Shown here in pieces: positions 2,602-27,602 of a stretch of DNA of 38,881 nt (position 1 is its first letter; every line of letters starts with the position of its first letter). The notes beneath the pieces were generated by a model. The model ran no database searches, was not told the DNA's origin, and saw only the letters and a list, made by a program, of their open reading frames with translations. The position numbers and the translations under genes are program-made. The stretch is from a virus: positions 1 to 38,881 of IMG/VR virus record IMGVR_UViG_3300044608_001059, one strand, 5' to 3'.

Positions 2602-3961
2602 GCACCTGCTCCTCGTTGATCCACGCGCCGTAGAACGCAAACGGCGTCGGGTCGCTGTACGTCAACTGGTACACCCGGTTACGCGACCGGCCGTGGCGGG
2701 TGAACGGCACGCGCTTGCGCGTCTCGCCGATCTTCCCAACGCCCCGAAAGTAGGTCGTGCCCCACGTCTTGCCGCCGTCGTCCGAGTACCGCAGGCCGAT
2801 TTGGGGGTCAGAACCCTGCCCCGTGATCAGCCCCACGCCCACGTCGAGGTCGAGTTCAACGCGGTCAAAATGAATCCAGTTGGGACCGGCGGACAGGCTC
2901 TCCGAGGTCAGCGTCACCACCTGCGGGTCGCCCCACTCGGTGTACGTCTCGGGGTCCAGATAGCCGAGCTTGTTCCCGCTCCAGACGTACTGGCGCCCGT
3001 AAGCCTCGATGTGGCCCTCAACCTGCCAGCGGTCGCTGCCGTAGCTCGCCCGCTCGTTCCACAGGCCCGTCCCCACGGAATACTCAAAGGTTCGCCCCTC
3101 GCTGGGGAACGTCAGCACATACGAGAACGTGCCGTCCTGCGAGATCGCGAGGCCGAAGGCGTCGTCCAGGGTGTCGAAGCGCGCGAACAGTTGCTCAAGG
3201 GCTTCCGTGGACACCCGCTGCGGCGTATTGCCCCGCAGGACGCGCACCGTGCGGTCGTCGGCCAGCCAGAACACCGACTGATCGAGTTTCGCGGGGCTTC
3301 GCGGCGCCAGGCACCCGCGCTCAATGAAGCCGTCCGAGTTGAGGCCGAACGGATACGGAATCGTGCCCCGGTTGGACGCAATCGCCATCGCCCGGGGGCC
3401 AAACTGGATGAGGTCGCGCCCCTCGGCAATGATGGCGGTCGGCTGTTGCTGCGCCCACGAGATCGAATCGAAGGCGAGGGCTTGGTAATTCAGCGGGTCG
3501 CCGAAGTCGCTGACGAAAATCCGGTCGTCAGCCAGAAAAACAAAGTACCCGTCCGTCCACACCACCTGCGTGGACGGCAGGAAGTCGGCATCGGTGATCG
3601 GCGTAACCGTCGTGGTCACCACATAGCCGTCGCCGTCGGCCAGAAACACGGCCTTATCGACGCCCGCCGCGCTCGGGCAGTAGCCGGTGCCGGGGATCGA
3701 CCCCAGTAGCGTCGCGGTGTGGCTGTCCGACACCGAATAGACGCCTTCTCCCGCCACGATCACCAGCGTATTGCCCACCAGGGACGCGCCCCGAATGGGG
3801 CCGGCGGCCGTGAGGGCATTCTTGATGCCCGGCAGCCGGAAAACCGGCGTCTGCGTGCGCGATCCCTGCTGCGCGGGGACCGTTCTTGCGTTCACCACGC
3901 GCTGCGCCGACAGGCTCAGGGCCGGCGACTGGTACGAATTCACCGCAAACCGGGTGAACAC
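2591..3961 (-). CDS. P22 gp10-like packaged DNA stabilization / tail hub protein
   Basis: A 456-residue protein from a GTG start one base after the upstream stop. In P22 gp10 forms the ring below the portal that holds packaged DNA and anchors the tail. The match is by features: an N-terminal R-V-V-N-A-R segment and L-P-G-I-K, repeated beta-strand blades with V-W-T-D-G-Y-F and F-V-S-D-F-G-D-P patterns, and a length close to P22 gp10 (472). Its place after the adaptor gene and before the injection proteins also fits. Confidence in the family is good; residue-level function is not tested. Confidence 0.85.
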   Translation of the reverse strand: MFTRFAVNSYQSPALSLSAQRVVNARTVPAQQGSRTQTPVFRLPGIKNALTAAGPIRGASLVGNTLVIVAGEGVYSVSDSHTATLLGSIPGTGYCPSAAGVDKAVFLADGDGYVVTTTVTPITDADFLPSTQVVWTDGYFVFLADDRIFVSDFGDPLNYQALAFDSISWAQQQPTAIIAEGRDLIQFGPRAMAIASNRGTIPYPFGLNSDGFIERGCLAPRSPAKLDQSVFWLADDRTVRVLRGNTPQRVSTEALEQLFARFDTLDDAFGLAISQDGTFSYVLTFPSEGRTFEYSVGTGLWNERASYGSDRWQVEGHIEAYGRQYVWSGNKLGYLDPETYTEWGDPQVVTLTSESLSAGPNWIHFDRVELDLDVGVGLITGQGSDPQIGLRYSDDGGKTWGTTYFRGVGKIGETRKRVPFTRHGRSRNRVYQLTYSDPTPFAFYGAWINEEQVLAA

Positions 3962-6815: not shown

Positions 6816-7583
6816 TCAGTACCCCAGTCGGTAAATGGCCGTGGCGCGCCAGATGACGTTGGTGGTGCCCGGGCAGACCACCGTGGTGTTGGTGCCCGCC
6901 GCAGACGAGCGCAGCGGGGCGCCGAACTGGAACTCGGTTTCGGTCAGCGTGCCCTGCGGGGCCGCGTCGGCCCGGAACGGGATCGAGGGCGTGCCGGGCA
7001 GGTTGGTGGTCGTCACGAGGACCGGCGTGGCGCCCGCCGTCAGGGTGGCGACGGCGAAGTGGTAGACGCGGATGCTGTCGAAGTAGTGGAACAGGCCGGT
7101 CACCGACGGAACCGTCAGGGTCACCGCCGCGCCCGAGGCGCCCGTGGCGGTAATGGCCAGCGTCATCGGCACGCGCTCGACCTGGATGACCGCATCGGCG
7201 CCCGTCGCCCGGGCTGCCACGATCACCGGGCCGCTGGTGTAGGCAGAGGCCCGGATGCGGACCCGGCGGAAGCCGGCCACGTTGACCGCAACGGTGGTGC
7301 CGGTGGCAGTCACCGACACGACGTAGGCTTGCGTCACCACGTTCAGCGCCGCGAGGGCGACGTAGTTGGTGCCGTCCACCGAGCCCTCAAACACACAGGT
7401 GGCGGTGAACGTGCCCCGGAAGTCCACCAGCATGGTGGAGTGGCCGTTGAGGTCAAGCAGCACCTCGCCGTTGGCGGCCGCGATGTTCTGCGTGACCGCC
7501 CTACCGTCGGTCAGCGTGCCGCCCCCGAGCTGGTCGAGGACGCCCATGTACTCGTTGCCGCGTGCGTCGTACAGGATTGCCAT
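6816..7583 (-). CDS. Putative head-associated structural protein
   Basis: A 255-residue beta-rich protein with repeated Thr/Val/Ala strands and a middle F-E-G-S-V-D-G-T-N-Y-V-A-L stretch, a pattern common in phage surface sandwiches that resemble carbohydrate- or decoration-type domains. It lies between the portal block and the scaffold gene and is followed by a clear terminator. The ATG is one base after the upstream stop. A structural role is inferred from position and composition; no enzyme motif is present. It could be a second decoration protein. Confidence 0.6.
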   Translation of the reverse strand: MAILYDARGNEYMGVLDQLGGGTLTDGRAVTQNIAAANGEVLLDLNGHSTMLVDFRGTFTATCVFEGSVDGTNYVALAALNVVTQAYVVSVTATGTTVAVNVAGFRRVRIRASAYTSGPVIVAARATGADAVIQVERVPMTLAITATGASGAAVTLTVPSVTGLFHYFDSIRVYHFAVATLTAGATPVLVTTTNLPGTPSIPFRADAAPQGTLTETEFQFGAPLRSSAAGTNTTVVCPGTTNVIWRATAIYRLGY

Positions 7584-7584
7584 G

Positions 7585-7908
7585 TCAGCCCACTGTGTAG
7601 TTCAGCCGGAACGCGCCGCCGATCCGCTGACCGGCTGTCGCGATCACGTCAAAGCCGCCGGTCCCAGCAATGGCCGCAAAACTCACGGCGTCCATCTCGG
7701 GGTCGTTCTCGTCGGTGTCCAGCGGGCCAGCGGGCTGCACCAGAATCCGGTTGCTGCCCGTCACCGTGGCGTCGGACACCGTGATCCGCGCCCGCTTGAC
7801 GCCATAGGGAACCGTGATCGTCGCCGCCTTGACTTGCGGGCCGGAGGCGCTGCTGCCGGACGCCGCCTTGGCCTTCCGCAGCGCAAACTGGATCAGCGCC
7901 GTACTCAC
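7585..7908 (-). CDS. Small head-associated protein of unknown role
   Basis: A 107-residue protein from a GTG start that overlaps the portal stop (GTGA). The sequence is beta-rich with a basic start (F-A-L-R-K-A-K-A-A) and a D-T-D-E-N-D-P acidic loop. It follows the portal gene and precedes another beta-rich head protein. The pair could be surface or neck proteins. No recognisable motif. Confidence 0.6.
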   Translation of the reverse strand: MSTALIQFALRKAKAASGSSASGPQVKAATITVPYGVKRARITVSDATVTGSNRILVQPAGPLDTDENDPEMDAVSFAAIAGTGGFDVIATAGQRIGGAFRLNYTVG

Positions 7909-15306: not shown

Positions 15307-15529
15307 CGCCACGCACCCTGTCCACGCGTTTCACCAGTTCCTCGCCGGCCCGTTCCATCACCTGCCACCAGATTTTTTCCAGCGCCCGCCGTTGCTTCGT
15401 GGTGCTGCGGACGTACATCAACGCTTCCACAGCCTCTTGGATCGCATCGGCCGCGTGCCAAAGCGCCAGCGTCGGCTCGTCCTTCGTGAAGGCGGGCAGC
15501 AGTTCGTCCGGCAGTTCAGGCAACGGCAC
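15290..15529 (-). CDS. Small helical protein of unknown role
   Basis: A 79-residue acidic helical protein from GTG 15529, overlapping the helicase end by 14 bases. It is rich in Leu, Glu and Ala with a W-W-Q-V-M-E-R helix. Its tight coupling to the helicase gene may mean that the two act together, but nothing in the sequence shows this. Confidence 0.6.
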   Translation of the reverse strand: MPLPELPDELLPAFTKDEPTLALWHAADAIQEAVEALMYVRSTTKQRRALEKIWWQVMERAGEELVKRVDRVRGDDRRF

Positions 15530-17018
15530 GGCGGCGCTCCTGGCCCTTCGCCCACTTGATTTGCAGGTGCTTCACCAAGCCCGCCGTTTCGGCGCTCGGG
15601 ACCGCCATCGCGTCCCGGTTCCAGTCCCACGGGGGAAACGAACCAAACGCTTCCTTGTATTTGTGCGCGGCCCACCCCGGCTTGAAACCACGGCTATGCG
15701 CATACATCCGCAGTTCGGCGTAGGTCTGCCGCTGCTGGCGCCGCGCCTCGCCGTTGCGACGCTCCAGGTCGCCGTCGATAACCGCCACATCCTTCGCCGG
15801 ACGCGGCACCTGCCACCCGCATTTCGGGCAAACCATCGACCCGCGAAAGACGTGGGCGCAGCTACCACACGTCCGCGTCCGCTGCTCCCGCGCCTTGGGG
15901 TCGCGCTCGCGCAGCTTGGCTTGCCGCTCCTGCACCGTCTCGTCACCGGCCAGCGACCACGGCCGGTCCTCGTCGGCAAACCCGTGCAGGTCTACGGCGC
16001 CCGAGTGGTCTAGCACCAGAGCATCCGTCTTACCCGGCGCCGGCCGCAGGCCACGGCCGACCATCTGGAGGTACAGAACCAGCGACTTCGTGGGCCGCGC
16101 CAGCACCACGCACGACAGGTCCGGCAGGTCGAAGCCGTAAGACGCCAGAAAACAATTCGTCAGGACGCCCGTATCGCCCCGCCGGAACCGCTCAAAAATA
16201 CGGTCGCGCTCGGCCTGAGGGGTCGCCGCATCGACGTGTTCGGCGGGAACGCCCGACCGATTAAAGGCGTTCGCAAGGTGCTGCGAATGCTCGATGCCCG
16301 AGGCAAACACCACCGTCCGGCGGCCCGCCGCGAGCTTGTGCCAGTGCGACACAATGTCGCCCACCAGCTTCGGCGCGCTCATCACGCGCTCAAGCTGGCC
16401 CTGGACATAGTCGCCGGCCCGTACCTGCACCTCGTCCAGGTCGGGTTTGGTCGGGGCGTAGTAGACCGCCGGGCACAAGAAACCCTGCGCCGTCAGTTCG
16501 GCCACCGAGGCCACCGGAATAATCTCGTCGTACACCACACCCAACGCCCGGCCGTCACCGCGGGCCGGCGTCGCCGTCAGCCCCAGCACCATCGCGTCGC
16601 GGTAGTGGTCCAACACCCGCAGCGTGGACGGCGAGATACTCAGGTGCGCCTCGTCCACGATCACCAAGTCCGCACGCGGCGCGCACGCGGCGCCCTTTTT
16701 CAGCCTGGCGTGCAACGTCTGCACGCTCGCCACCTGCAACGGGGCGTACAGGCTCGGCGATTCGCCAGCCATCACGATCCCCGGCGGCAGGCCGGCCGCG
16801 GTCAGTTTCTCGACGGTCTGATGCACCAGCTCGCGCCGCGGGGCCACGAACAGCACCCGACGGCCGGCAGACTTGGCCGCCGCCATCACCGCCACCGCCA
16901 TCACCGTTTTGCCCGCGCCCGTCGGGGCCAGCAGGATCGGCCGGCGGCCGGCGCGCAGCGACTCACCCACGGCGGTCAGCGCGGCTTGCTGGTACGGGCG
17001 TAGCGAGAAACTGTTCAC
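15516..17018 (-). CDS. SF2 DEAD/DEAH-type helicase
   Basis: A 500-residue ATP-driven DNA or RNA strand-separating enzyme. Motif Q/Ia: L-R-P-Y-Q-Q near residue 6. Motif I is P-T-G-A-G-K-T (32-38), motif II D-E-A-H (122-125), motif III T-A-T (148-150), and motif VI Q-M-V-G-R-G-L-R-P (near 330). A C-x2-C and C-x2-C zinc knuckle follows (CGSC and CPKC, about 400-415), then a charged tail. The GTG start overlaps a 36-residue ORF stop. Probably the phage replication or recombination helicase; it is not a DnaB type, and no DNA polymerase is present, so replication would lean on the host. Confidence 0.9.
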   Translation of the reverse strand: MNSFSLRPYQQAALTAVGESLRAGRRPILLAPTGAGKTVMAVAVMAAAKSAGRRVLFVAPRRELVHQTVEKLTAAGLPPGIVMAGESPSLYAPLQVASVQTLHARLKKGAACAPRADLVIVDEAHLSISPSTLRVLDHYRDAMVLGLTATPARGDGRALGVVYDEIIPVASVAELTAQGFLCPAVYYAPTKPDLDEVQVRAGDYVQGQLERVMSAPKLVGDIVSHWHKLAAGRRTVVFASGIEHSQHLANAFNRSGVPAEHVDAATPQAERDRIFERFRRGDTGVLTNCFLASYGFDLPDLSCVVLARPTKSLVLYLQMVGRGLRPAPGKTDALVLDHSGAVDLHGFADEDRPWSLAGDETVQERQAKLRERDPKAREQRTRTCGSCAHVFRGSMVCPKCGWQVPRPAKDVAVIDGDLERRNGEARRQQRQTYAELRMYAHSRGFKPGWAAHKYKEAFGSFPPWDWNRDAMAVPSAETAGLVKHLQIKWAKGQERRRAVA

Positions 17019-17553: not shown

Positions 17554-17774
17554 GCCTCACCTGCCGGCTGAATCCAGACCAGCGATGGCAAGCGCTTGAG
17601 CAGGAACGCGGGCAGGTGGTGTTCCTGCACCTCGTAGGCCGGCAGCGGCACCGTGGGGACCACGGGCGGCGGCGGTACGGTGTTGCCCGGCTCGCGGAAA
17701 TCGACGCCGGGGCGAAGGGACAGCGAACCGTCGGCGTTCTCGCGGACGGCGCGGGGGTCAGCCTTGGCTACCAT
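17550..17774 (-). CDS. Small proline-rich protein of unknown role
   Basis: A 74-residue protein that starts within the end of the Cro-like gene. The middle is Pro-rich (NTVPPPPVVPTVPLP) and probably unstructured; the C-terminal part is hydrophobic (FLLKRLPSLVWIQP). No activity can be assigned. Its position as second gene of the leftward operon suggests an early host-takeover role, which is inference. Confidence 0.6.
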   Translation of the reverse strand: MVAKADPRAVRENADGSLSLRPGVDFREPGNTVPPPPVVPTVPLPAYEVQEHHLPAFLLKRLPSLVWIQPAGEA

Positions 17775-17952
17775 CGTTCGTGGCTCCTGCGGCTTCTGGT
17801 TGCGTCTGGCGCATGATTTCGGCCAGACGGGCGTGGTAACGCTCGGGAACGTGATGCGGCTTCCACTGGTACGGGGTGTGCGGCCGAAGGCCGAGGGCCT
17901 TAGCAATCTTGTACCGGGTGCCGAAGTGCGCCAGCACTGCGTTGATATCCAT
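17758..17952 (-). CDS. P22 Cro-like DNA-binding regulator
   Basis: A 64-residue helix-turn-helix protein starting at ATG 17952. The segment N-A-V-L-A-H-F-G-T-R-Y-K-I-A-K-A-L-G-L (residues 4-22) and the following P-H-T-P-Y-Q-W-K match the Cro/YdaS group, where the second helix reads DNA. Lambda-like Cro proteins are 60-70 residues, the same as here. It lies beside a divergent promoter region with operator-like repeats and is the first leftward gene. It probably turns down one or both promoters. Its transcript may be leaderless (predicted promoter -10 ends 8 bases before the ATG). No CI-type repressor is present. Confidence 0.8.
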   Translation of the reverse strand: MDINAVLAHFGTRYKIAKALGLRPHTPYQWKPHHVPERYHARLAEIMRQTQPEAAGATNDGSQG

Positions 17953-17960
17953 AACCGGGC

Positions 17961-17988
17961 ACCCTACGGATGCCACCGGAAATGTCAA
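17961..17988 (-). promoter_or_regulatory. Leftward promoter for Cro-like operon
   Basis: On the - strand TTGACA (17983-17988, a perfect -35) is followed after 16 bases by TAGGGT (17961-17966, weak -10). The expected start falls at about the ATG of the Cro-like gene (17952), so the message would be leaderless or nearly so. The -10 matches the consensus at only three of six positions. Confidence 0.6.
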
Positions 17989-18003
17989 TAGCCCCGTGGC
18001 GGT

Positions 18004-18037
18004 GCCGACGAACGGTCGATTACAGCCGACGAACGGT
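18004..18037. promoter_or_regulatory. Paired direct-repeat operator
   Basis: GCCGACGAACGGT occurs at 18004-18016 and again at 18025-18037. The two copies are 21 bases apart, two helical turns, and lie between the two divergent -35 boxes. A third partial copy (GCCGACG) lies at 18125-18131. This is the layout expected of operator sites for the Cro-like protein, though direct repeats, not palindromes, are unusual for a dimeric Cro. Confidence 0.7.
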
Positions 18038-18039
18038 AG

Positions 18040-18067
18040 TTGATATGGCGGACAGGGTATGTAATAT
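18040..18067 (+). promoter_or_regulatory. Rightward early promoter
   Basis: TTGATA (18040-18045, five of six -35 bases) and TAATAT (18062-18067, four of six -10 bases) are 16 bases apart. Transcription would start near 18075 and read into the early operon, with about 80 bases of leader before the first ATG at 18154. The -35 lies two bases after the second operator copy. Confidence 0.6.
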
Positions 18068-18076
18068 GGTCGCCAA

Positions 18077-18139
18077 GCCCGCCCCCACCCGTTCCTCCAA
18101 CCGGGTGCCTAGCGAGAGGGGTCAGCCGACGGGGCGGGC
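18077..18139 (+). promoter_or_regulatory. Structured early-operon leader
   Basis: GCCCGCCCC (18077-18085) pairs with GGGGCGGGC (18131-18139), and ACCCG/CGGGT (18087-18091, 18102-18106) forms a smaller hairpin inside. This leader could act in transcription control (pausing or antitermination) or mask a ribosome site. No U-run follows. Confidence 0.4.
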
Positions 18140-18153
18140 GCTGGGAGACAGAC

Positions 18154-18486
18154 ATGGACACGCGATTCCCCATCGGTAACCCGACCCTCGCGGACCTCAT
18201 CACCGCGCAGCTCACCGATTCCTGGCGCGGCGGTGTCCGCCAGCCCATCGACGGGTGCGAGGTGAACGACCTGCTGCGGCAGTTCGCGCAGGCCCACCCC
18301 GCCCAGTGCGCGCACTTCGTCGCTGAGGCGATTGCCGAGGCCGAGGACGACCACCTGTGCCGCATGGCCTGCGAGTCCACCGAACTCATGGGCACGACGG
18401 CGGCGCTGGCGATCCGCGCCTACACGCGGGCGTGCATGGAGGCGCAGCAGGCGTACCTGCTGTCCACCGAGAGGCTGGCGTCATGA
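18154..18486 (+). CDS. First early gene, unknown role
   Basis: A 110-residue protein, start at ATG 18154 with GGGAG about 6 bases before it. It is helical, with a Cys/His pattern (C-x-H-F, H-L-C, A-C) that does not match a known finger. The upstream in-frame extension contains the predicted promoter and operators, so the short form is used. First gene of the rightward operon, hence probably expressed right after DNA entry. Function unknown. Confidence 0.65.
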   Translation: MDTRFPIGNPTLADLITAQLTDSWRGGVRQPIDGCEVNDLLRQFAQAHPAQCAHFVAEAIAEAEDDHLCRMACESTELMGTTAALAIRAYTRACMEAQQAYLLSTERLAS

Positions 18487-19178: not shown

Positions 19179-19357
19179 TCCAGCCCGCGCACAAAGCCTT
19201 GGCCGTTGTGGCCCTGCGCGAGCGGGCCGAACGGATGAAGGTGGCGGCGCTGGCTGCCGCCGAAACGGACAGGGTGCGCGCGACCTCACTTCTTGACCTC
19301 GCTCGCGACTGCTCGCGGGCGGCTGATGAGATCCAACGGGAGATAACGCATGACTGA
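19175..19357 (+). CDS. Small helical early protein
   Basis: A 60-residue Ala/Arg-rich helical protein starting at GTG 19175 (GTGA). It overlaps the Erf gene by eight bases and so may be translated with it. No motif that would give an activity. Confidence 0.6.
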   Translation: MIQPAHKALAVVALRERAERMKVAALAAAETDRVRATSLLDLARDCSRAADEIQREITHD

Positions 19358-20018
19358 CGCAAGCGACAACATCGCCGAACTGGCCGCCGCGCTCGCCAAG
19401 GCGCAGGGCCATATCACGGGCGCGCTCAAGGACACCAACAACACGTTTTTCAAGTCCAAGTATGCCGACCTTGCGGCGTGCTGGGACGCCTGCCGGAAGG
19501 CGCTCAGCGACAACGGGCTGGCCGTCATCCAGACCACGACAGAGCGCGACGGGCACCTGTACGTCGCCACCACCCTCGCCCATTCGTCGGGCCAGTGGGT
19601 GCGCGGCTGGATGCCCGTCAAGACGAAGGACGACGGCCCGCAGGCTATGGGCTCGGGGGTCACCTACGCTCGGCGCTACGCGCTGGCGGCCATCGTCGGG
19701 CTGGCCCAGGTGGACGACGACGCCGAGGCGGCGCAGGGCCGGACCAGCGTGTCGCCCACCCGCATCGACCCCCTCGACAACGGCCAGACCGGCACGCCGC
19801 AGCAGCACAAGTATGCAGCCGAGTTCGCCAAGGCGTTTCGCGATGCGCTGGACGCCGACATTGGCGAGGATGAGAAGGCGCAGCGGATTGCCCAGCTTGG
19901 GCAGGAAATCAAGGAGGATGAGACCGTCATGGGCCTCACTTGGAGCCTGCTCAAGAAGGACAAACTACACAAGGCGATCACCCTCTACATGGGCAAGGCC
20001 CGGAAGGAAGCGGCATGA
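19350..20018 (+). CDS. erf: Erf-family single-strand annealing recombinase
   Basis: A 222-residue protein that anneals complementary single strands and helps circularise or recombine phage DNA. The family signs are the start region with L-A-A-A-L-A-K-A-Q-G-H-I, N-N-T-F-F-K-S-K-Y-A-D-L (residues 30-41) and G-S-G-V-T-Y-A-R-R-Y-A-L (about 101-112). Length is close to P22 Erf (204). GGGAG lies about 8 bases before the ATG. Next door is a small protein with an SSB-like acidic end, and a nuclease and a helicase lie on the other strand. Confidence 0.92.
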   Translation: MTDASDNIAELAAALAKAQGHITGALKDTNNTFFKSKYADLAACWDACRKALSDNGLAVIQTTTERDGHLYVATTLAHSSGQWVRGWMPVKTKDDGPQAMGSGVTYARRYALAAIVGLAQVDDDAEAAQGRTSVSPTRIDPLDNGQTGTPQQHKYAAEFAKAFRDALDADIGEDEKAQRIAQLGQEIKEDETVMGLTWSLLKKDKLHKAITLYMGKARKEAA

Positions 20019-22008: not shown

Positions 22009-22360
22009 CCTGACCGCAGACGATTACGCCAGGGTCGCCACCGAGATCGGGATGGTGTGCGAATGCGAAGCCGGCGGTTTCTGGCGAGAAGCCCTCGGCG
22101 TAGGAAGGAGCGGCATCGTTGCTCTCGACGCCGACCTCCCCGCCTACCTCGCCGAGCCCGCGCAGATGGTGAGGATTCTCAACTGGCTCCGCGACCACGA
22201 TCACCTGCCTGTGCTGACCCTCAACCCCGAGGACGGCCGCGAGGAATACTGGATCTGCGAGATGGCGGACCTCTCGACTCTCGACAGGCCGGTCTTCGCC
22301 ATCGGGCAGGACCCCGGCGAAGCCGTCCGCGACTGCGCGGCGCGGGCGCTGCGGCCGTGA
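22001..22360 (+). CDS. Early protein, ABA-sandwich-like layout
   Basis: A 119-residue protein starting at GTG 22001 within the end of the previous gene. The layout (strand, W-L-R-D-H helix, L-P-V-L-T-L strand, Y-W-I-C-E-M strand, then G-E-A-V-R-D-C-A-A-R-A-L helix) resembles small alpha-beta-alpha sandwich proteins found in phage early operons. Role unknown. Confidence 0.6.
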   Translation: MSDLTADDYARVATEIGMVCECEAGGFWREALGVGRSGIVALDADLPAYLAEPAQMVRILNWLRDHDHLPVLTLNPEDGREEYWICEMADLSTLDRPVFAIGQDPGEAVRDCAARALRP

Positions 22361-22488
22361 AGCCAGCTAGCCAGAACGACGTGGCGGCGTGGGGCGCCAT
22401 GGCCTGTGCGATGGCGACTACGCCCGACCCGGTATCGTTGGCTTGGTTTGCTCTCTCGGTGGTCTTCTTCGTGTTCTCGCGGCCGTGA
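22357..22488 (+). CDS. Small membrane protein, 43 residues, last early gene
   Basis: A 43-residue ORF from GTG 22357 (GTGA). The last 18 residues are a hydrophobic helix (S-L-A-W-F-A-L-S-V-V-F-F-V-F) ending in Ser-Arg-Pro. The end of the rightward operon; converges on the endolysin gene. Function unknown. Confidence 0.55.
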   Translation: MKPASQNDVAAWGAMACAMATTPDPVSLAWFALSVVFFVFSRP

Positions 22489-22502
22489 TCGTCACTCAGG
22501 AA

Positions 22503-22536
22503 CAGCCGCGCCCCTACGGGCCTCGTATTGCGGCTG
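22503..22536. terminator. Inverted repeat between convergent operons
   Basis: CAGCCGC (22503-22509) and GCGGCTG (22530-22536) form a seven-base stem around a GC-rich loop. It lies between the last rightward gene and the endolysin stop, where a two-way terminator would be needed. There is no T-run, so the stop signal is weak by sequence. Confidence 0.4.
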
Positions 22537-26873: not shown

Positions 26874-27602
26874 CTAGACCCCGCCCGTCATCGTCCAAGT
26901 GCCGGTGCCGTCACCGAGGTTCGTGCCGGCGTTCCAGTTCGTCGCCGTCTGCGCGTCGCCAAAGCCGATGGCGGGGCGGGCGCCGGGGTTCTCCATGTTC
27001 GCCCCGAGGGCGCGGGCGGGGTAAAACTTCGTCGGGTCGGTGATGTATTGGCCCACGTCGAACCACGCGAGGCCCATGCGGCCGACAAGGCGCAGGGTGC
27101 CGGAGGTCGAGCCACCGATGCTCCACGCGGTCGGGCGTGGCATGGCCGTCGTGGCGCCGCCGCCAAGCCACGAAACGGTCACCGTGCGTTCCTCGGCATT
27201 GACCCAGCACCGCACCGTCTGCGTCGTGCGGTCGGCGGCGACGTGGATCACATAATCGGTGTTGGCGGACAGGTTGCTACCGCTGATCGTCGCGCCCACG
27301 AACCCCGCGTTGGAAAAGTTCGTCGGGGCGTTGAGCGTGACCGCACCCGTGCCAGCGCTTATGGAGATCAGCGGCAGGCCGGCGGTGCTGACAAAGCCCA
27401 TCAAAACCTGCTGGTTGGTCAGGTCGTTCGTGCGAAACGCCACCGCCGCCGTGAACGTGTCGAACGTCGCCGCAAGGCCAAGGTTCGTCGCGTTGTCGAG
27501 CTGGTCCCCGCCGTCAAAGACGACGTAGTTGTAGGCGTAGGCAGGCCCCGCCCGCCCCACCCCAAGGCCAACGCCGAGGTTCAGACCCAGACCGACGTGC
27601 AT
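26874..27602 (-). CDS. LamG-like tail-fibre region protein
   Basis: A 242-residue protein with a Gly/Leu-rich start (G-L-G-L-N-L-G-V-G-L-G) followed by a concanavalin/LamG-type beta sandwich: F-D-T-F-T-A-A-V-A-F-R, Y-V-I-H-V-A-A-D-R-T, W-S-I-G-G-S-T-S-G and G-R-M-G-L-A-W-F. Such domains bind sugars on host or capsule. The ATG at 27602 is used; it overlaps the previous gene by 22 bases. Likely a receptor-binding accessory. Confidence 0.75.
   Translation of the reverse strand: MHVGLGLNLGVGLGVGRAGPAYAYNYVVFDGGDQLDNATNLGLAATFDTFTAAVAFRTNDLTNQQVLMGFVSTAGLPLISISAGTGAVTLNAPTNFSNAGFVGATISGSNLSANTDYVIHVAADRTTQTVRCWVNAEERTVTVSWLGGGATTAMPRPTAWSIGGSTSGTLRLVGRMGLAWFDVGQYITDPTKFYPARALGANMENPGARPAIGFGDAQTATNWNAGTNLGDGTGTWTMTGGV

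Follow-up and report, generated by a model that had tools for sequence, protein, structure and literature searches.

Organization of the early region

The window described here, 38,881 nucleotides long and comprising the whole of IMG/VR record IMGVR_UViG_3300044608_001059, is a complete circular genome, with a 127-bp terminal repeat and with a sister contig (L009) that crosses the junction. By its gene content (capsid, portal, terminase and ERF recombinase) the phage is P22-like. The features of its early region are collected in Table 1.

Table 1. Features of the early region and of the integrase deletion site, in window coordinates
Feature	Position	Strand	Basis
DEAD/ResIII helicase, PR operon	15516..17018	-	family match
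Lone Cro, 64 aa, ATG start, P22_Cro type	17758..17952	-	profile match, PHROG, fold match
Imperfect dyad GGCACCC-TAC-GGATGCC over PR -10; candidate Cro operator	17958..17974	.	analogy with relatives
Leftward early promoter PR, before cro and the helicase operon: TTGACA (17988-17983), 16 bp, TAGGGT (17966-17961)	17961..17988	-	sequence inspection
Tandem element GCCGACGAACGGT-N8-GCCGACGAACGGT	18004..18037	.	exact repeats at 18004-18016 and 18025-18037
AlgR boxes CCGTTCGTC	18007-18015 and 18028-18036	-	only two exact copies in genome
Rightward early promoter PL: TTGATA (18040-18045), 16 bp, TAATAT (18062-18067)	18040..18067	+	sequence
PL leader, GC-rich fold	18073..18153	+	sibling alignment, folding
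First gene of PL operon, 110 aa, no family	18154..18486	+	family searches
ERF recombinase, PL operon	19350..20018	+	family match
Deletion scar, first 21 bp of sibling DUF4224 gene	22485..22506	+	20/21 identical

The leftward-reading 64-residue gene, which a preliminary description had called Cro-like, has held up as a P22-type Cro on two counts: it matches the P22_Cro profile PF14549 (E = 2.9e-6; 27.4 bits, slightly below the curated cut-off of 30.2), and it has the Cro fold, its AlphaFold model (pLDDT 80) finding P22 Cro, 1RZS, as best match in the PDB (E = 0.012, probability 1.00). It also belongs to PHROG 409, "transcriptional regulator". The Cro proteins of the relatives discussed below exceed the PF14549 cut-off (70 bits for that of L067, for example). 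The -10 box of the cro promoter ends 8 nt ahead of the cro ATG, so that the mRNA is probably leaderless.

Also located as first described were the two promoters facing away from each other and, between their -35 boxes, two 13-base direct repeats exactly 21 bases apart. The repeats sit 15 bp from the leftward -35 box and 2 bp from the rightward one, the pair ending 24 bp before TAATAT, and their centres lie near -63 and -42 of PL. On the minus strand each repeat reads ACCGTTCGTCGGC, which contains CCGTTCGTC. An exact 13-bp repeat arose within the 201-bp gap in 4 of 5000 first-order Markov sequences (about 1 in 1000); chance was rejected on this local count, and is not credible given the 48 copies with spacing 21 (see below).

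The region shares with the immunity region of P22 and lambda (CI, Cro, OR/OL) a P22-type Cro, divergent PR and PL, a helicase operon behind cro and ERF behind PL. Unlike that region, it has no CI, its -35 boxes are only some 50 bp apart, and a pair of AlgR-type boxes stands where the operator array would be.

The PL leader, which reaches from the likely +1 to the first ATG (2971-3051 in the sibling contig L026), is about 99% identical between the window and its siblings, while the aligned stretch including the gene that follows shows about 81% identity. It folds as a GC-rich multi-branch stem, with z only -1.0 to -1.65. No known RNA family was found at the leader; an sR33 match (E = 0.014) lies outside it and below the gathering score. 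Possibly the leader exerts control as RNA, for instance as an antiterminator.

Temperate siblings and loss of the lysogeny genes

Two temperate siblings have been identified, IMGVR 3300044646_001032 (L024/L010, 18 kb) and 3300042549_006369 (L026/L027, 38.7 kb), both colinear with the window on either side of the immunity locus. L024 is about 90% identical to the window over the portal-terminase stretch, and the flanking early genes of L026 are 78-92% identical. Between positions corresponding to 17759 and 18073 of the window, both encode a different Cro and, divergently, a 136-aa HTH repressor (HTH_26/HTH_3); the window's repeats were not found at this cro-CI locus. A repressor gene at the same place in close relatives without the repeats, which the preliminary description had named as counting against its operator reading, was looked for and is what the siblings carry. 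The interval corresponding to 22360-22507 of the window contains, in the siblings, genes for a DUF4224 protein and a tyrosine integrase together with a probable attP, which is 48 bp long and resembles the 3' half of tRNA-Lys. In L024 this stretch, tRNA-Lys (UUU)-like, lies at 2101-2148 beside the integrase, and it could identify the host.

Both components of a lambdoid lysogeny switch, a CI-type repressor divergent from cro and an integrase with its putative attP, are thus present in the siblings and absent from the window. The statement that repressor and integrase are both missing stands for the complete circular genome: no tyrosine integrase was found in it, none of its 144 scanned ORFs other than cro encodes an HTH protein, and the rest of the sequence yielded neither a CI-like ORF nor an att remnant; a hidden CI was rejected on the ORF scan. 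The scar listed in Table 1 joins directly to sequence past the integrase and attP, and since this DUF4224 remnant has been kept, the most likely course is that the window's lineage lost the integrase block, not that the siblings gained it. The suggestion that the phage might be a lytic relative of temperate phages is likewise supported: given that the siblings carry CI and the DUF4224-integrase-attP (tRNA-Lys) block exactly at the window's gaps, and that the scar persists, the window phage is, judged by sequence comparison, a lytic descendant of a temperate phage.

Lone-Cro relatives

Since a direct search of viral contigs with the window Cro (P0001) gave no relatives, portal and ERF were used to find them. 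The ERF protein as query yielded 56 loci, mostly of lower GC content (about 0.55) than the window. In most of those loci that reach that far, a P22-type Cro, recognized by the Cro profile, reads away from the ERF operon. Among the ERF loci only the two siblings have a second HTH gene (CI) beside Cro; about 30 related loci likewise have a lone Cro and no CI. Tyrosine integrases were found only in the two siblings among 38 records searched, many of which are fragments, so that absence is no proof for a single record. A CI-type gene does lie beside Cro at this place in the more distant temperate relatives PS-1, YA3, Pam1 and CBW1004C-Prop1.

In the lone-Cro loci the cro -10 box often again lies 6-8 nt from the ATG. 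Dyads of the form TTAAC-N4-GTTAA, read by eye, overlie the -10 boxes of both promoters in L041, L050, L056 and L032 and recur despite differing flanks; they are likely the operators of lone Cro. Neither the 13-bp repeats nor an exact AlgR box was found near cro in any lone-Cro locus. The window's own best dyad, over the PR -10 box (Table 1), was set aside as a Cro operator, being no better than chance (65% of shuffles reached its score).

The tandem element in other viruses

Besides the window, 13 viral contigs with GC contents of 41-71% carry the exact element with all its 26 fixed bases. Beyond the element their DNA has no match to the window locus; L085, one of the 13, does match the window in another place (26878-27525, at 68%). 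When the pattern was relaxed to CCGACGAACGG N2-32 CCGACGAACGG, 52 viral contigs were found. These contigs, the window, Stenotrophomonas phage Sonora and L098 together contain 60 occurrences, and in 48 of them the spacing is 21, with 31 spacings allowed. The pair is thus present in dozens of viral contigs, which reduce to 37 non-redundant sites; over these, the -35 score peaks 2 bp from the pair and the -10 score 23 bp beyond it, where the mean log-odds of -3.0 exceeds the 99th percentile of shuffles (-3.9). In Sonora four pairs, of which one has diverged, precede promoter-like sites within a single part of the genome. Several pairs per phage, each before its own promoter-like site, were also seen in L087 (1474-1507 and 1991-2024) and L100 (four sites). 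The Xanthomonas phages XacN1, FoX6 and FoX7 were rejected as carriers, showing part-matches only; no pair with up to three mismatches was found in the stretches of FoX6 and XacN1 examined. In the literature, a search for the motif as text returned no phage paper, and one for AlgR with phage promoters no relevant report among the papers searched.

This distribution bears on whether the window's repeats do anything at all. With CI and integrase missing and a scar left by the integrase block, the region could be a decayed immunity locus in which the repeats have no function; such decay is highly improbable, as the 13-bp identity and the spacing have been kept exactly, the geometry is that of other phages, and both promoters look intact.

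The binding factor would come from the host, since no LytTR domain (the AlgR family; see below) was found in the 37 pair-carrying records searched, of which those of the window and Sonora are complete; on this count a phage-encoded binder was rejected. In recurring in unrelated phages that lack the regulator gene, the pair resembles the CtrA sites of phage promoters. Integrase genes are present in 2 of the 22 larger pair-carrying records, so that the pair is not confined to lytic phages.

Relation to AlgR sites

The sequence CCGTTCGTC, whose two exact copies in the window are the only ones in its genome, is the AlgR core, identical at 9 of 9 positions to algD-RB1/RB2, algC-ABS1 and rhlA-ABS1; the consensus is that of Pseudomonas aeruginosa (PMC4064291). 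AlgR belongs to the LytTR regulators, whose direct repeats are separated by about 12 bp and, where promoters have been studied, lie upstream of -35 (PMC4064291, PMC6193735). The 9-bp cores of the window pair have this arrangement, their 21-bp spacing leaving exactly 12 bp between them just upstream of the -35 box, as at the LytTR direct-repeat promoters of HdrR, BrsR and AgrA; unlike in those systems, the regulator gene lies outside the phage. The box in the repeats presumably also fits the general LytTR consensus of Nikolskaya and Galperin.

With the promoters of the P. aeruginosa AlgZ/FimS-AlgR system (fimU-pilVWXY1Y2E, algD) the pair has the CCGTTCGTC core in common, and its position may be likened to that of the low-affinity algD-RB3, at about -45 and in opposite orientation (PMC4064291). 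It differs in consisting of two identical boxes exactly 21 bp apart at a phage early promoter, whereas most sites in P. aeruginosa consist of one box or are degenerate. That those sites are mostly not 12-bp direct repeats, with degenerate boxes at fimU, counts against the AlgR reading, as does the varying orientation of the pair to the promoter among phages (reversed in Sonora).

Bacterial chromosomes supply the strongest evidence for the AlgR reading. The pair was found in 4 of 369 genomes of one bacterial class, always with spacing 21, while a reversed-pattern control gave 0. All four copies adjoin type IV prepilin genes (GspH, N_methyl, ComP_DUS), recognized in the near-identical L145 and L146 from the translated start and not by family search; one copy also lies next to a FAD-dependent oxidase gene resembling thiO. 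Type IV prepilin genes are a classical AlgR target, the fimU-pilE cluster being AlgR-activated in P. aeruginosa. Each of the four genomes encodes exactly one LytTR protein, and in one of them the gene order is His-kinase, LytTR regulator, hemC, like algZ-algR-hemC of Pseudomonas. When the LytTR protein of L149 was compared with the PDB, all matches were to receiver domains and no AlgR was named. One more occurrence, with spacing 24 (L152, G579:C145:4956-4990), came from a further sample of 398 genomes, and the 13-mer form of the pair is present in 1 of 84,980 species genomes. The small number of chromosomal copies, four with about three independent, counts against the AlgR reading.

These results together bear on the proposal, made in the preliminary description, that the repeats are Cro operators through which Cro might do both jobs. 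It has in its favour that the repeats lie between the two promoters, that each contains a CCG-N5-CGG dyad, and that their spacing would suit two protein dimers on one face of the DNA. That Cro exerts all control through them is nevertheless very unlikely: the pair recurs in dozens of phages, with no homologue of the window Cro in the 13 exact-pair contigs tested; it contains the AlgR box and marks chromosomal prepilin promoters; it is absent from the lone-Cro relatives, whose operator-like dyads overlap the -10 regions; and it stands upstream of the -35 boxes, which is an activator position. Unrelated phages carry the same 21-bp-spaced pair, always a set distance away from a -10 box, which makes it probable that Cro does not use the repeats as operators; very probably the repeats are instead a host AlgR-type site.

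A possible host-controlled early promoter

What the old immunity locus would thus retain is a bidirectional early promoter region with a single phage repressor, Cro, and a single control element of host type. It appears reasonably likely that, in this lysogeny-less P22-like phage, host AlgR (LytTR family, AlgZ/FimS-AlgR system) binds the pair and activates early transcription, with Cro as a time-delayed brake. AlgR would bind in line near -42 and -63 of PL, which corresponds to about -57 and -78 of PR, and would activate PL and possibly, from the other side, PR, so starting the ERF and helicase operons; Cro made from a leaderless mRNA would accumulate and then repress both promoters. The start of infection would thereby be tied to AlgR activity in the host, and so to the making of pili. 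With neither CI nor integrase, no lysogenic outcome is expected.

A different assignment, in which a host factor other than AlgR binds the pair, or in which AlgR keeps the early genes repressed pending a change in the state of the host (a deferral like that by CtrA), seems unlikely. AlgR does both activate and repress, and its repression counts against reading the pair as an activation site; there is also the precedent of CtrA in pilitropic alphaproteobacterial phages (PMC9437464). Against this, the position next to -35 and the fixed distance to -10 fit activation, and AlgR is favoured by the identity of the box and by the linkage to pilin genes.

Activation by AlgR in the window would have counterparts elsewhere, the presence of the pair in dozens of unrelated viruses suggesting that these let a host sensor help start infection. 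More broadly, and with about even odds, many unrelated, mostly integrase-less phages may have independently taken up the pilin promoter element through which their host responds to AlgR; early transcription, and hence the timing of lysis, would then follow the pilus two-component system; in the window this element would replace the CI switch and oppose the lone Cro. As with the CtrA-controlled promoters of pilitropic and flagellotropic alphaproteobacterial phages (PMC9437464), unrelated phages would here have host-regulator sites at their promoters; the regulator family is a different one. Type IV pili are described as receptors of Stenotrophomonas phages DLP1 and DLP2 (PMC6024842).

What had looked like a trimmed lambda switch would then be a host-controlled promoter element found across many phages. 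If this is right, the reading of a host regulator by phages to time infection, so far argued for CtrA, extends to AlgR, which regulates pili and, in Pseudomonas, alginate as well; the state of algR is predicted to alter phage early gene expression, and the pair is a ready motif for finding such phages. The siblings with CI and integrase and the lytic lone-Cro phage with its AlgR-type element would also form a clean set for studying the passage from temperate to lytic life.

Other features of the lone-Cro loci

In L049, L050, L062 and L066 a palindrome whose arms (AAATACATA...TATGTATTT) are about 9 bp long lies between the early promoters, where the window has the AlgR-type pair. Upstream of cro in L048, L036, L040, L063 and L051 there is a near-symmetric two-way promoter, with both -10 boxes TATCCT and two TTGACA boxes a few bases apart. 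The early operon facing the lone Cro of L044 encodes, at 7468-7653, a CsrA homologue (PF02599, E = 1e-17).
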